Source: Flavobacterium sp. M31R6
GTDB taxonomy: Bacteria; Bacteroidota; Bacteroidia; Flavobacteriales; Flavobacteriaceae
Direction of reading: 5' to 3'
NCBI RefSeq assembly: GCF_013284035.1
Contig: NZ_CP054141.1
Location: 1,116,001 to 1,180,000, forward strand
DNA length: 64,000 nucleotides
In this document: in pieces, positions 4,974-9,331 of the stretch
How positions within the stretch are numbered: position 1 is the first letter of the stretch
How the letters are laid out: each line of letters begins with the position of its first letter
Made by a program: the position numbers and the translations under genes
The notes under the pieces: generated by a model
Told to the model about the DNA's origin: nothing
The model's input: the letters and a program-made list of their open reading frames with translations, nothing else
The model's database searches: none

Positions 4974-5130
4974 ATAAAAAATTTAGTCTGTAAAAATAGG
5001 CAATTGAGTTTTAAAAATGAATTTGTTATCGAAATTTATAATTACCAATAGAAAAGTAATAATGAACTCTTTTTTTGACTTTAAAGATGAGTTCGTTAAG
5101 GCAAAGTTAAACTTTTATTGAGGGGTAAAT

Positions 5131-5165
5131 CTTCATTTTGTCTTCATTTATCGGTTATACATTTG
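5131..5165 (+). promoter_or_regulatory. Tandem-repeat operator plus -7 box upstream of basic exported peptide 1
   Basis: Two direct repeats CTTCATTT (5131-5138 and 5142-5149) are spaced with an 11-bp period, then 8 bases, then TACATTTG (5158-5165), a perfect TAnnTTTG -7 element. The -33 position has no TTG and is occupied by the repeats, as expected for an activator-dependent promoter. The same layout recurs before the paralogous gene at 7721. OmpR/PhoB-family regulators typically bind such 11-bp-period direct repeats, and one is encoded directly downstream. Confidence 0.75.
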
Positions 5166-5206
5166 ACCTATAAATAACAAATTATTAATTCAAAATTTTA
5201 GAAATC

Positions 5207-5398
5207 ATGAAAAAAGTATTGTTGTTAATCGCAGTATTATTTGGAACAGCAGTGATGGTAAATGCTAAAACACTGCCTGAAAAATCAGCTACAGTGAAAG
5301 AAGTGAAAATGACTAAACATCCAAAACACAAAAAAGCGAAAAAAGAACAAAAAGAAGCAGCGCCAACTGGAGCGTCAACTTCTAAAACAAAAAAATAA
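5207..5398 (+). CDS. Small exported lysine-rich protein (paralogue 1)
   Basis: A 63-residue protein with a classic signal peptide (MKKVLLLIAVLFGTAVMVNA, cleavage after residue 20), leaving a mature peptide of about 43 residues that is almost a third lysine, with His-Lys clusters (KHPKHKKAKKEQKE). It is similar in signal peptide, length and composition to the protein at 7721-7918. The two flank a two-component system and have the same promoter architecture and a 41-base leader. The family is unknown to me. In charge and size it recalls periplasmic acid-shock (Asr-like) peptides, but this is an analogy and not demonstrated homology. Confidence 0.8.
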   Translation: MKKVLLLIAVLFGTAVMVNAKTLPEKSATVKEVKMTKHPKHKKAKKEQKEAAPTGASTSKTKK

Positions 5399-5463
5399 TT
5401 AATGTTTCTGTTTTGTTTGCATATGAGGATGGACGCAAAACAAAAGGGTTGATTGTTTATGAA

Positions 5464-5492
5464 AGTCAGTGGAGAAATTTACTGGCTTTTTT
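5464..5492 (+). terminator. Intrinsic terminator after basic peptide 1
   Basis: AGTCAGT (5464-5470) pairs with ACTGGCT (5481-5487), including two G-T pairs, around a 10-base loop and is followed by a run of T. It separates the small gene from the response-regulator gene. Confidence 0.6.
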
Positions 5493-5546
5493 GTATTTTT
5501 AGATACGTTAAAATTTTAATAACGTTTTGTGTTTTAATTTTTCATT

Positions 5547-5559
5547 AGTTGTTACTTTG
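5547..5559 (+). promoter_or_regulatory. Possible promoter element for the two-component genes
   Basis: AGTTGTTACTTTG ends in a variant -7 box (TTACTTTG) 24 bases before the response-regulator ATG, with a TTG at 5527-5529, 22 bases upstream of the box. The identical 13-mer is found at 8064-8076 before the metallophosphoesterase gene. The box departs from TAnnTTTG at one base. Confidence 0.4.
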
Positions 5560-5583
5560 AGTGTTTTTTAATAAAAAATATTT

Positions 5584-6258
5584 ATGAAAATTCTTATTGT
5601 TGAAGATAATCCCGAATTGGCTTTGGAAGTGAAAGAATATCTTTCCAGCAATGGCTATATCTGCAAAATTTCCAAGAATTGTGAAGAGGCATTGGAGGAA
5701 ATCAACAGTAATGATTATGACATTATGCTTTTGGATTTAGGCTTGCCCGACGGAAGTGGTTTTGATGTTTTAAAAAGCATTCGTAAAACAGATTCCAAAG
5801 TTGCGGTGATTATCATTACTGCCCAAGGAGAATTGGAAGACAGAATAAATGGACTGCAACTTGGCGCAGATGATTATTTGACAAAACCTTTTGCTTTAAC
5901 AGAGTTGGGAGCTCGTTTATTTGCCATTATTCGAAGAATGCACGGATATACTGTTAATCAGTTGGATGTTCATGGGTTTAGTTTGAAGTTGCAAGATTAC
6001 AAAGTAAGTTATGATGAGATTCCAATTAATTTGACCAAAAAGGAATTTGATATTTTTCAATATTTAGTTTTAAACAAAAATCGTGTAATAACACGTTTGC
6101 AATTGACCGAGCATATTTGGGGAGATATTCTTGAAGTAAATTCCGATTCCAATTTTATAGATGTCCATGTTCGAAATCTTAGAAAAAAATTAGATAAACA
6201 TTCCCAAATCGAATGGTTTGAAACTGTTAGAAATGTGGGTTATAGGATAAATGTGTAG
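5584..6258 (+). CDS. OmpR/PhoB-family response regulator
   Basis: A 224-residue regulator. The receiver domain (1-115) has the acidic pair E7-D8, phospho-acceptor D51 in DIMLLDLGLPDG, and the conserved Lys of DDYLTKPF. The C-terminal winged helix (about 130-224) shows LTKKEFDIFQYLV, then HVRNLRKKL and TVRNVGYRI, typical of OmpR/PhoB DNA-binding domains. The kinase gene follows 24 bases later, so the pair is one operon. The probable targets are the two flanking genes for basic exported peptides, because both carry an 11-bp-period direct repeat that fits this regulator class. The signal is unknown. Confidence 0.93.
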   Translation: MKILIVEDNPELALEVKEYLSSNGYICKISKNCEEALEEINSNDYDIMLLDLGLPDGSGFDVLKSIRKTDSKVAVIIITAQGELEDRINGLQLGADDYLTKPFALTELGARLFAIIRRMHGYTVNQLDVHGFSLKLQDYKVSYDEIPINLTKKEFDIFQYLVLNKNRVITRLQLTEHIWGDILEVNSDSNFIDVHVRNLRKKLDKHSQIEWFETVRNVGYRINV

Positions 6259-6282
6259 CGTTTAATAATTAATATTCTGTAT

Positions 6283-7617
6283 ATGAAAATCAAGCATCAA
6301 TTGGCTATTTTTAATGCATTGTCGCGTTTGTTGCTGATTTTGGTTTTATGGCTAATGCTTCCTGTTTTGGTCGAAAAAGTGGTTTACAATCACATAAACA
6401 AGAGTTTACTGGAGAAAAAACAAAAGTTCATTGAGCATTTAGACAAGGAAGAAATAAATGATTTCATTGTTCGGAATGACACTTCCGAGACTTATGCCAG
6501 TTTTTCAACTTTACATAGTGAGTTCCTTTCGCTTTCCAGAGTACCTTCTAAAGTCAAAATTGATCAAACACTTTTTATTACAGAGCAAAGAATAATTGAA
6601 GATGAGCGAAATGATTATAGAATTCTTCAGTATTATTTTAAGTATGAAAACACAAACTACCTTTTGGAAATTGGAAATAGTTTAAGCGAAATCGACGATC
6701 TTACCTTTGTAATTCGATTTTTCTTCATAATTGTTTTAATTATAATTGTGGTCATTACTTTTTTGGCAGATACTTTTTATATCGAATATTTATTAAAGCC
6801 TTTTTATAAAATTATTGATACTAAAATCCGTCATGTAAATGAACCCGAATCTTTTGATCACACTCCAATAAAAACACATTCTAGGGATTTTCAGGAATTG
6901 GATACTGTTCTAAATCAAATGATGGACAGAATTACTGAATTGTTTAAGAAGGAAAAGCAATTTATAGCCAATGTTTCCCATGAACTTTTGACTCCAATTG
7001 CATTATTGAAAAACAAATTTGAGAATTTACTTCAAAATGAATCTTTGGATGATAATGCAGTGGATAAAATTGTAGGTTCTCTAAGTACATTAGATCTGCT
7101 GAAAAAGATAATTGCCAATTTATTGTTGATTTCAAAAATCGAAAACAATCAATATGAAGCAAATGAGACGATTGATTTTGATGCTATAATTACCGATTTA
7201 CTAGCAGACTTGCAAGATAGGATTGAAGATAAGGAATTGTCTTTTAATAAAAATTTGGAACATCATTTTAGTTTTAGGGGAAATAAAACCCTGATGCATA
7301 TTCTCTTTTATAATTTGATAGTCAATGCGATTAAATACAATAACCCTTTAGGTACAATTGAAATTAAGGACGGTTTTTTGCATGGAAATTATTTCTTGTC
7401 AGTTTCGGATTCGGGTATCGGAATGAATAAAAAACAACAGCAGAATGTTTTCAAACGATTCACCAGAGTAAGTTCTGATCAGGAAGGGCAGGGGCTGGGG
7501 CTTGCAATTGTTGAAAGTATTGCTCAATTTCATCATATTACTCTTGAGATAACTTCAGAAATAAATATTGGTACCACTTTTATTTTGTTGTTTCCAAATG
7601 AGTCAAAACCCAATTAA
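6283..7617 (+). CDS. Membrane sensor histidine kinase
   Basis: A 444-residue kinase. Two membrane helices (about 9-31 and 143-165) bracket a periplasmic domain of about 110 residues that I cannot assign. The H-box is NVSHELLTPI with H233; the usual Arg after HEL is Leu here. The ATPase domain shows the N-box (NLIVNAIKYNN), G1 (SVSDSGIGM), F (FKRFTR) and G2 (GQGLGLAIVES) motifs, all intact, so it should autophosphorylate. It is co-transcribed with the regulator at 5584. The periplasmic domain presumably reads an envelope condition, which matches the envelope location of the two basic peptides beside it. Confidence 0.92.
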   Translation: MKIKHQLAIFNALSRLLLILVLWLMLPVLVEKVVYNHINKSLLEKKQKFIEHLDKEEINDFIVRNDTSETYASFSTLHSEFLSLSRVPSKVKIDQTLFITEQRIIEDERNDYRILQYYFKYENTNYLLEIGNSLSEIDDLTFVIRFFFIIVLIIIVVITFLADTFYIEYLLKPFYKIIDTKIRHVNEPESFDHTPIKTHSRDFQELDTVLNQMMDRITELFKKEKQFIANVSHELLTPIALLKNKFENLLQNESLDDNAVDKIVGSLSTLDLLKKIIANLLLISKIENNQYEANETIDFDAIITDLLADLQDRIEDKELSFNKNLEHHFSFRGNKTLMHILFYNLIVNAIKYNNPLGTIEIKDGFLHGNYFLSVSDSGIGMNKKQQQNVFKRFTRVSSDQEGQGLGLAIVESIAQFHHITLEITSEINIGTTFILLFPNESKPN

Positions 7618-7644
7618 AAGTTAATTTTTTCGAGAAGACCAAAA

Positions 7645-7679
7645 CTTCATTTAATCTTCATTTAGCATGTATAGCTTTG
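7645..7679 (+). promoter_or_regulatory. Tandem-repeat operator plus -7 box upstream of basic exported peptide 2
   Basis: CTTCATTT occurs at 7645-7652 and 7656-7663 (11-bp period), followed by exactly 8 bases and TAGCTTTG (7672-7679), a TAnnTTTG -7 element. Repeat sequence, period, distance to the -7 box and leader length (41 bases) are the same as at 5131-5165. Confidence 0.75.
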
Positions 7680-7720
7680 ACCTATTAATAAACTAAATTA
7701 TTAATCTAAAATTTAAAATC

Positions 7721-7918
7721 ATGAAAAATTTATTGATGGTATTGGCAGTAGCTTTAGGAACAACAGTTATGGTAAGTGCACAAACTACACCAGCTCAAAC
7801 TACACCTACTAAAGAAGTAAAAGCTACTAAAAAAGAAGCAAAAAAAGAAACAAAAAAAGCGCACAAAACAGAAGTTAGCAAACCAACTACTACTGAGACT
7901 GCAACTCCAAAAAAATAA
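7721..7918 (+). CDS. Small exported lysine/threonine-rich protein (paralogue 2)
   Basis: A 65-residue protein with a signal peptide (MKNLLMVLAVALGTTVMVSA, cleaved before QTTP), then a mature region made of Thr-Pro and Lys-Lys runs (QTTPAQTTPTKEVKATKKE, later KKETKKAHK). No cysteine, no membrane segment. It is paralogous to the protein at 5207-5398, and the two bracket the two-component genes. I infer a soluble, very basic periplasmic or surface peptide under control of the adjacent regulator. The function is unknown. Confidence 0.8.
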   Translation: MKNLLMVLAVALGTTVMVSAQTTPAQTTPTKEVKATKKEAKKETKKAHKTEVSKPTTTETATPKK

Positions 7919-7987
7919 AACAATCTTTTGTTAGTGAATATTTCATAGAATATTTCAAAAGATGTTAAAAGTTGGTTTTAATAGGAG

Positions 7988-8022
7988 AAAAGGGGAGATA
8001 AAGAAATTTACTCCCTTTTTTT
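7988..8022 (+). terminator. Intrinsic terminator after basic peptide 2
   Basis: AAAAGGGGAG (7988-7997) pairs with CTCCCTTTTT (from 8011) around a 13-base loop and runs into seven Ts (8016-8022). Confidence 0.75.
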
Positions 8023-8063
8023 GCGTTAAAATTATGGTAATATGGGTATTTAGCATTTTCAAT

Positions 8064-8076
8064 AGTTGTTACTTTG
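8064..8076 (+). promoter_or_regulatory. Possible promoter element for metallophosphoesterase
   Basis: The 13-mer AGTTGTTACTTTG is identical to the one at 5547-5559 and ends 19 bases before the ATG at 8096. It contains a one-mismatch -7 box. Confidence 0.4.
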
Positions 8077-8095
8077 TATAAAATTTTATAAAATA

Positions 8096-9331
8096 ATGAT
8101 CTTACGTTTATTCTTTATAGGTGCTATTCTTTTTGTTATTGAGCTTTATGCTTTTCAGGCAATTAAAACTTTAATTAAATTGAAATGGCTGCTGATTTCT
8201 TATCAAATAATAAGCCTTTTTCTTTTTGTATTTATCCTTTATTCTTTCACGCAATTTGACCGTTCAGTTGGGCAAACCAAGCAGACGATGTTTACTATGG
8301 GCTTGTTGCTGGTGGTTTATCTTCCTAAAATTGTAATGACGGTAATTCTTTTGGGAGAAGATGTATTCCGACTGGCAGCGGGGTCAATCAATTATTTTAT
8401 TGATAATAATAGTAATTCCGATTTTTTGCCTTCCAGACGTAAATTTGTTAGTCAAATAGGTTTAGGGTTGGCTGCCATTCCTTTTTTATCGCTAATTTAT
8501 GGAATATTTGAAGGGAAGTATAATTATAAAGTCATAAAGCAAGCGATACATTTTCCGGATTTGCCCGATGCTTTCGATGGCTTTACAATTACCCAAATTT
8601 CAGATGTACATAGCGGTAGTTTTGATAATCCTGAGAAGATTAATTACGCTATTGATTTGGTGAATGCCCAGAATTCTGACATGATATTATTTACGGGTGA
8701 TATTGTTAATACACATGCCAAGGAAATGCATCCCTGGATTGAAACTTTTAACAGGATTGATAAACATGAATATGGTAAGTTTTCGGTTCTTGGAAATCAT
8801 GATTATGGAGAATATGTGACTTGGCCAACACAAGCCGCCAAGGATAAAAATTTTGAGGACATAAAAAAGTTATACGGTCAAATAGGATTTCAACTGTTAT
8901 TGAATGAACATACTTTTATCGAAAAAGACGGCGATAAAATTGCATTGGTTGGAGTAGAAAATTGGGGTAAAAATTTCAAACAGGCTGGTGATTTAAAGAA
9001 AGCAGCACAACATTTGAGTAAGGAGGATTTTAAAATCTTAATGAGTCATGATCCAAGCCATTGGAATGAAGTGGTTCAGTACGACGATAAGCATTTTCAT
9101 TTAACCTTGTCTGGACATACTCACGGAATGCAATTTGGGATTGAAATTCCAGGTTTTTTTAAGTGGAGTTTGGCTCAATATGTTTACAAACAATGGGCGG
9201 GATTATACGAAAATTTGGGGAGATATGTGTATGTAAATCGTGGTTTTGGATTTCATGCCTATCCTGGCAGGGTTGGGATTATGCCGGAAATCACAGTAAT
9301 TCAACTAATAAAGAGTAAAAAATTAGCATAA
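8096..9331 (+). CDS. Membrane-anchored metallophosphoesterase (calcineurin-like)
   Basis: A 411-residue protein. The first 115 residues contain several hydrophobic helices (LRLFFIGAILFVIELYAF, LLISYQIISLFLFVFIL and others), then the phosphoesterase domain with the metal motifs ISDVHSGS (about 172), FTGDIVNTH, LGNHDYGEY, LMSHDP and SGHTHGMQFG, in the order of the calcineurin-like superfamily with the catalytic side probably facing the periplasm. Members of this YkuE-like group are often annotated as phosphohydrolases; the substrate cannot be told from sequence. I chose ATG 8096 because a reading frame extension to TTG 8066 would overlap a putative -7 element (8064-8076). Confidence 0.88.
   Translation: MILRLFFIGAILFVIELYAFQAIKTLIKLKWLLISYQIISLFLFVFILYSFTQFDRSVGQTKQTMFTMGLLLVVYLPKIVMTVILLGEDVFRLAAGSINYFIDNNSNSDFLPSRRKFVSQIGLGLAAIPFLSLIYGIFEGKYNYKVIKQAIHFPDLPDAFDGFTITQISDVHSGSFDNPEKINYAIDLVNAQNSDMILFTGDIVNTHAKEMHPWIETFNRIDKHEYGKFSVLGNHDYGEYVTWPTQAAKDKNFEDIKKLYGQIGFQLLLNEHTFIEKDGDKIALVGVENWGKNFKQAGDLKKAAQHLSKEDFKILMSHDPSHWNEVVQYDDKHFHLTLSGHTHGMQFGIEIPGFFKWSLAQYVYKQWAGLYENLGRYVYVNRGFGFHAYPGRVGIMPEITVIQLIKSKKLA

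Follow-up and report, generated by a model that had tools for sequence, protein, structure and literature searches.

The 64,000-nucleotide stretch of DNA from Flavobacterium sp. M31R6 analyzed here (contig NZ_CP054141.1, positions 1,116,001 to 1,180,000; hereafter the window) contains a two-component system, consisting of a response regulator gene followed by a sensor histidine kinase gene, with a gene for a small, basic, predicted exported peptide on either side (Table 1). A sequence-only reading of this DNA had reported that both peptide genes are preceded by identical repeats with identical spacing and an identical 41-base distance, and direct reading together with a pattern search bears this out. 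The full pattern, CTTCATTT-N3-CTTCATTT-N8-TAnnTTTG, is present without mismatch at 5131-5165 (operator A) and 7645-7679 (operator B), each time with 41 bases between the -7 box and the ATG.

Operators A and B carry the only two exact repeat pairs in the whole genome (G000; 4,464,517 bases); from the base composition of the window, with bases taken as independent, the exact repeat pair would be expected there about 0.01 times and the full pattern 6e-6 times. With up to three mismatches, the full pattern still recovers only the two window sites genome-wide, and the reversed control yields 2. Looser searches for the repeat pair alone behave as chance predicts: five matches with up to three mismatches are found in the window against 3.2 expected, exact only at the two operators, and 21 matches with up to two mismatches are found genome-wide against 22 for the reversed control, with no weaker sites standing out. 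Since these matches are at the level of the control, we claim no wider regulon in this genome.

Pfam domains confirm that an OmpR/PhoB-type regulator and its kinase lie between the peptide genes. The regulator combines a receiver (Response_reg, 99.8 bits; cut-off 30.2) with a winged-helix domain (Trans_reg_C, 79.9 bits; cut-off 26.2), the combination that defines the OmpR/PhoB type, and its nearest solved full-length relatives are 1kgs, 8jo2 and 4s04. The kinase carries HisKA and HATPase_c domains. A structural model of its sensor domain (residues 26-160) suggests a PAS/PDC-like fold, with structure matches, WalK and CusS among them, that are middling only. This periplasmic domain is acidic, with a net charge of -5 to -10 in the 13 kinases compared.

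Peptides A and B each begin with a hydrophobic segment that ends in VNA or VSA, respectively, judged by eye to be a signal-peptidase-like site, and continue as a basic remainder, whose charge from a maturation point fixed at residue 20 is +10 in peptide A and +7 in peptide B. Neither peptide has a Pfam or NCBIfam match over cut-off, and both are hydrophilic (grand average of hydropathy, GRAVY, about -1.6). With the same fixed maturation point, the 83 peptide open reading frames (ORFs) recovered from the loci described below encode mature peptides with charges of +5 to +14 (median +8) and isoelectric points of at least 9.8 (median 10.1), which are rich in Lys and devoid of Cys, Trp and Tyr. The motif KE[VAIL][KTR] is kept in 81 of the 83.

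To define the distribution of this arrangement, 150 Flavobacterium genomes and 299 genomes of the family were sampled by even draws from the larger groups. Kinases were sought with a profile at a threshold of E 1e-60 (11 candidates scored per genome in the genus set and five in the family set), regulators were counted at 70% identity or more, and peptides were sought with a profile at E <1e-9. As a test, the sequence-only reading had proposed to ask of other Flavobacterium genomes whether the repeat pair there, too, leads genes of this peptide family next to this regulator, and the test is passed: the exact full pattern is found in 39 of the 150 genomes (52 sites; reversed control 0), all of which lie among the 40 genomes that match the kinase profile (weakest E 4.4e-174). 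The fortieth, G064, has a site with one mismatch, and none of the 110 kinase-negative genomes contains the exact pattern (Fisher p 2.5e-35 for co-occurrence of pattern and kinase, a value that ignores kinship and linkage). The regulator is present in the same 40 genomes, the next matches reaching only 38-43% identity, and the peptide profile finds these 40 and one more, G138. Among the 299 family genomes, two of which belong to the genus of the window, a full-length kinase match and the exact pattern occur only in the window's own genome; in two other genomes kinase matches start only at residue 95 or 133. The loci L009-L031 share the arrangement of the window, and among them are those of the environmental species F. 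aquidurense (L014) and F. taihuense (L011). In the genomes sampled, only some members of the genus Flavobacterium carry the cassette.

The window and the 39 fetched kinase loci, scanned on the operon strand only, contain 78 sites, of which 51 are exact, 24 have one mismatch, one has two and two have three. These precede 74 peptide genes, two regulator genes (G082 and G133) and two genes that adjoin the regulator on its 5' side and are labeled PepSY-like (G065 and G111), the PF11396 scores of the latter, 16.6 and 26.7 bits, lying below the 28.3 cut-off. Among the 83 peptide ORFs, 69 have a site and 14 have none; all 14 are preceded by a further peptide gene and probably represent second cistrons. 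The earlier proposal of an output of two peptides is thus a special case: the number of peptides encoded varies from one to three between loci, and at four sites the gene that follows is a regulator or PepSY-like gene. Of the 52 exact sites in the 150 genomes, 51 lie in kinase loci, which makes a binding factor with many other targets unlikely. These comparisons demonstrate a conserved pattern, its near-complete restriction to the locus and the co-occurrence of the parts.

The regulators mirror this constancy. Across the 40 genomes, identity to the window regulator is 0.76 for the receiver, 0.91 for the DNA-binding domain and 0.99 for the recognition-helix region, and 16 of 19 recognition-helix positions are invariant; a near-invariant recognition helix is what a constant operator would require.

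Alignment of 51 non-redundant sites (<80% identity over 155 bp) gives the half-site consensus TCTTCATTT, an 11-bp period and a TAnnTTTG box that is almost always kept. Both window promoters, and the 78 sites, show the tandem half-sites about one helical turn apart expected, from sequence, of an OmpR/PhoB-type target. The sequence-only reading had appealed to this property, and it fits the head-to-tail binding of tandem recognition sites described for such regulators (PMC4117788). In F. psychrophilum the TAnnTTTG box is placed at -12 to -5 (PMC9723704). Applied here, this would put the transcription start of promoter A near 5170 and that of promoter B near 7684; half-site 1 would then span about -39 to -32 and half-site 2 about -28 to -21, and the 41 bases counted from the -7 box would correspond to a leader near 37 nt rather than to a 41-base leader. 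It had also been suggested that regulators of this type can replace the -33 contact. The -33 region lacks TTTG in 39 of the 78 sites, including promoter B (spacer AAT), in keeping with this suggestion, and retains a TTTG formed by the spacer in the other 39, including promoter A (TGT), in disagreement with it. Placement at -39 to -21 is typical for activators that touch the sigma factor.

A third element, GTTAA, accompanies 73 of the 78 sites at a distance of 25-26 bp upstream of half-site 1; it is doubled at 11 bp in 30 of the 38 sites upstream of the kinase but in none of the 40 downstream. Its absence at the matching distance from all 92 other TAnnTTTG boxes, a small sample drawn from the window only, argues against a general promoter element. 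Upstream of the repeats, CTTCATTT is matched best at offset -25 (4.2 of 8 positions against an offset mean of 2.3), a resemblance that is suggestive only of a degenerate half-site; that 25 bp is not a multiple of 11-bp steps speaks against it. GTTAA may provide the same regulator with a weak second pair of sites, or it may be bound by a different protein.

Table 1. Features of the locus and their coordinates, numbered from the first base of the window.
Feature	Position	Strand	Basis or remark
GTTAA-N6-GTTAA, upstream promoter element of peptide A, 11-bp period	5095..5110 (GTTAA 5095-5099 and 5106-5110)	+	
Operator A, CTTCATTT-TGT-CTTCATTT	5131..5149 (half-sites 5131-5138, 5142-5149)	+	direct reading and pattern search
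-7 box TACATTTG, promoter A	5158..5165	+	predicted start near 5170
Peptide A, 63 aa, basic, predicted exported	5207..5398 (ATG 5207)	+	
Terminator-like hairpin 3' of peptide A	5461..5490	+	weak; consensus scan, 3 in 5000-8200 vs shuffle mean 1.3
TTACTTTG, likely -7 box of regulator-kinase operon	5552..5559	+	read from sequence; no operator there in this genome
Response regulator, OmpR/PhoB type, 224 aa	5584..6258	+	Pfam
Sensor histidine kinase of 444 aa with a periplasmic domain (residues 31-140, approximate)	6283..7617	+	Pfam, alignment, model of residues 26-160
GTTAA element, promoter B	7620..7624	+	
Operator B, CTTCATTT-AAT-CTTCATTT	7645..7663 (half-sites 7645-7652, 7656-7663)	+	direct reading and pattern search
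-7 box TAGCTTTG, promoter B	7672..7679	+	predicted start near 7684
Peptide B, 65 aa, basic, predicted exported	7721..7918 (ATG 7721)	+	43% identical to peptide A (alignment)
Metallophosphoesterase, calcineurin-like, membrane-linked, 3' of peptide B	8096..9331		PF00149

Several further observations concern the surroundings of the locus and look-alikes elsewhere. No operator precedes the metallophosphoesterase gene (8096-9331) in this window. A frame of 410-414 residues resembling its product also lies downstream in several other loci read. The promoter string AGTTGTTACTTTG is common to the regulator (5552-5559) and the downstream metallophosphoesterase (8069-8076); it stands before both positions in three of the 40 loci and before the phosphoesterase alone in a fourth. 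Five operator-led peptides (L125, L130, L149, L160 and L163; first cistron or flanking) have, N-terminal to the signal-like segment, a similar extension that reads M[KE]S[KQ]IHE...KNKL or PNKL...SK. Ten stretches with weak peptide-profile matches were fetched and read, and several were rejected as members of a different family of small, exported, Lys-rich proteins with several Cys residues (L203, at G000:C1:3553528, L197-L201, L204 and L205).

A scan of the 150 genomes for the full pattern with up to three mismatches gave matches in at least 82, often with the reversed control matching as well, and was not used for counts. Nine near-match stretches away from the locus, among the matches listed, were read. 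Five of these (L165-L169; two to three mismatches, TTTA for TTTG) precede a PepSY-like gene beside a LytTR-type regulator and were treated as another system, possibly of related promoter design; one of the five is from G060, a genome lacking a kinase match. Of the two that were compared with Pfam, one scores above the cut-off of 28.3 (29.2 bits) and one below it (20.1 bits); the other three were judged alike by eye. The remaining four stretches showed no link to the cassette.

We consider it likely that the locus constitutes a closed regulatory cassette, in which an OmpR/PhoB-type activator acting on tandem half-sites switches on the flanking genes for basic exported peptides. The membrane kinase would sense a periplasmic condition and phosphorylate the regulator, a dimer of which would bind head to tail across the CTTCATTT repeat, whose half-sites are spaced by 11 bp, in the region from about -39 to -21. 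Positioned there beside sigma-A at TAnnTTTG, the regulator would activate the flanking promoters, and the output would be exported peptides, one to three per locus, that are small, very basic and probably disordered. We infer that the regulator of the locus is the protein that binds the operator and that it activates. That the peptide genes share one highly conserved switch sequence points to a dedicated cell-envelope response, and the sequence-only interpretation as a whole is partly supported; envelope stress, sensing of pH or charge and feedback by the peptides are putative parts of it.

Several observations weigh against this assignment. All the parts, from regulator and kinase to peptides and operator, are packed into about 3 kb and would be gained and lost together, so that their co-occurrence alone does not name the binder; given this linkage, the scarcity of exact sites elsewhere is the better argument. 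The regulator gene itself has no preceding operator in this genome, and one exact site, in G094 (L164, C57:8489-8523), is unlinked to a kinase locus and faces only a short, unclear frame. G138 (L196:4028-4231) encodes a true relative of the peptides with neither the kinase nor an operator at up to four mismatches, indicating that the peptide can exist without this control. GTTAA could belong to another factor. Finally, the peptides are not members of the Asr family: no match to PF06392 is found in the M31R6 genome, and the E. coli control does match.

The chief rival, which we nevertheless think unlikely, is a feedback loop in which the acidic sensor domain binds the basic peptides as ligands and these shut the kinase off or hold it on, so that their job would be signalling rather than protection. 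CpxP, a periplasmic modulator of CpxA and a product of that system's own regulon, shuts CpxA off and serves as the model; the cassette peptides are far shorter. Peptide genes flanking the kinase in the same 40 genomes, the negative charge of the sensor domain and the retention of KE[VAIL][KTR] beyond the need of composition alone all suit such a loop; acidic periplasmic domains are common, however, and one to three divergent peptides per locus are unlike one fitted ligand. A broader proposal is similarly doubtful, namely a homeostat of periplasmic charge in which the regulator has almost no targets beyond the flanking peptide genes, the acidic sensor domain receives feedback from the peptides, and the threshold is set by a promoter carrying as many as four half-sites (the GTTAA pair and the CTTCATTT pair). 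The peptides might instead be released as cationic molecules, either antibacterial or binding extracellular DNA or lipopolysaccharide in the matrix, and be induced by sensed neighbours or surface damage. Their small size, predicted export, Lys content and positive charge would fit this role, but the low hydrophobicity of the two window peptides and the lack of Cys, Trp and Tyr do not, and the loci yielded no gene for immunity or export, though no search was aimed at such genes; we regard release as distinctly improbable.

It is less probable still that another regulator, encoded elsewhere, binds the operator and that the two-component system is a mere neighbour. Linkage would account for the co-occurrence without any binding, the operator is missing from the promoter of the regulator itself in this genome, and the extra GTTAA element suggests a further factor. 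Such a regulator would, on the other hand, have almost no target outside the kinase locus and no exact site in any kinase-negative genome, and the operator precedes the regulator itself in two genomes and the adjoining PepSY-like gene in two. Least credible, to the point of being nearly negligible, is that the shared promoter is a leftover of gene duplication with no regulatory meaning. The peptides are paralogous, and gene and promoter may have been copied together; over the 51 non-redundant sites, however, half-site columns carry 0.7-2.7 bits as against 0-0.7 bits between GTTAA and half-site 1, a contrast from which it follows that the half-site blocks are kept while the intervening bases drift.

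Two-component systems of the OmpR/PhoB type that have an exported effector are already known, and the cassette belongs to this kind. The regulator's best NCBIfam match is PmrA of the PmrA/PmrB (BasR/BasS) system, which is also close in the Protein Data Bank list (8jo2, 4s04), but at 187.1 of 330 bits the regulator falls below the equivalog cut-off (NF007928). The PmrA box is a CTTAA-type tandem with an 11-bp period, and the output of PmrA is lipid A modification, unlike that proposed for the cassette. The kinase is matched best by the PorY family of Bacteroidota kinases, again below cut-off (NF052314, 266 of 350 bits over residues 3-424), and differs in having an OmpR/PhoB-type partner regulator and peptide genes next to it. 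The pho box of PhoB is likewise built of direct repeats, spaced by about 11 bp and located immediately upstream of the core promoter, whereas the cassette has another half-site sequence and the Bacteroidota core promoter TAnnTTTG.

In its proposed mode of action the cassette resembles RstA/RstB and Asr of E. coli, where an OmpR/PhoB-type regulator binds a tandem site and activates a small, basic, disordered periplasmic protein: RstA binds and activates the acid-induced asr (PMC11135836), the RstA box reads TACA-N6-TACA (PMC4117788), and Asr is described as a disordered chaperone that supports outer-membrane integrity (PMC10746267). The cassette peptides resemble Asr in being small, strongly basic and, by eye, exported, yet they do not match PF06392. 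The half-site is CTTCATTT (consensus TCTTCATTT) rather than TACA, so that the operator is not an RstA box, and the peptide genes flank the regulator-kinase pair. Exact cassette sites are found almost only at the locus, whereas RstA has targets away from its own, csgD among them (PMC11135836). By analogy, the peptides may act in the periplasm as Asr does, serving as a chaperone or a cationic buffer when acid or another charge stress is imposed, a guess to which we give somewhat less than an even chance.

No earlier description of the cassette, the operator or the peptide family was found in the literature, which was covered mainly through titles and the openings of abstracts, with most subscription papers outside that coverage. 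A mutated OmpR family regulator reported in F. johnsoniae (PMC10197871) could not be linked to the cassette regulator.

The locus unites a regulator, a sharply defined operator and an output in less than 3 kb, and few defined regulator-operator pairs are known in the Bacteroidota; the operator could serve as an inducible promoter for Flavobacterium. Should the peptides prove to be Asr-like, two phyla would have independently evolved basic, disordered peptides of the periplasm that are governed by OmpR/PhoB-type regulators. If the peptides instead feed back on the kinase, the cassette would represent a new closed sensing loop.

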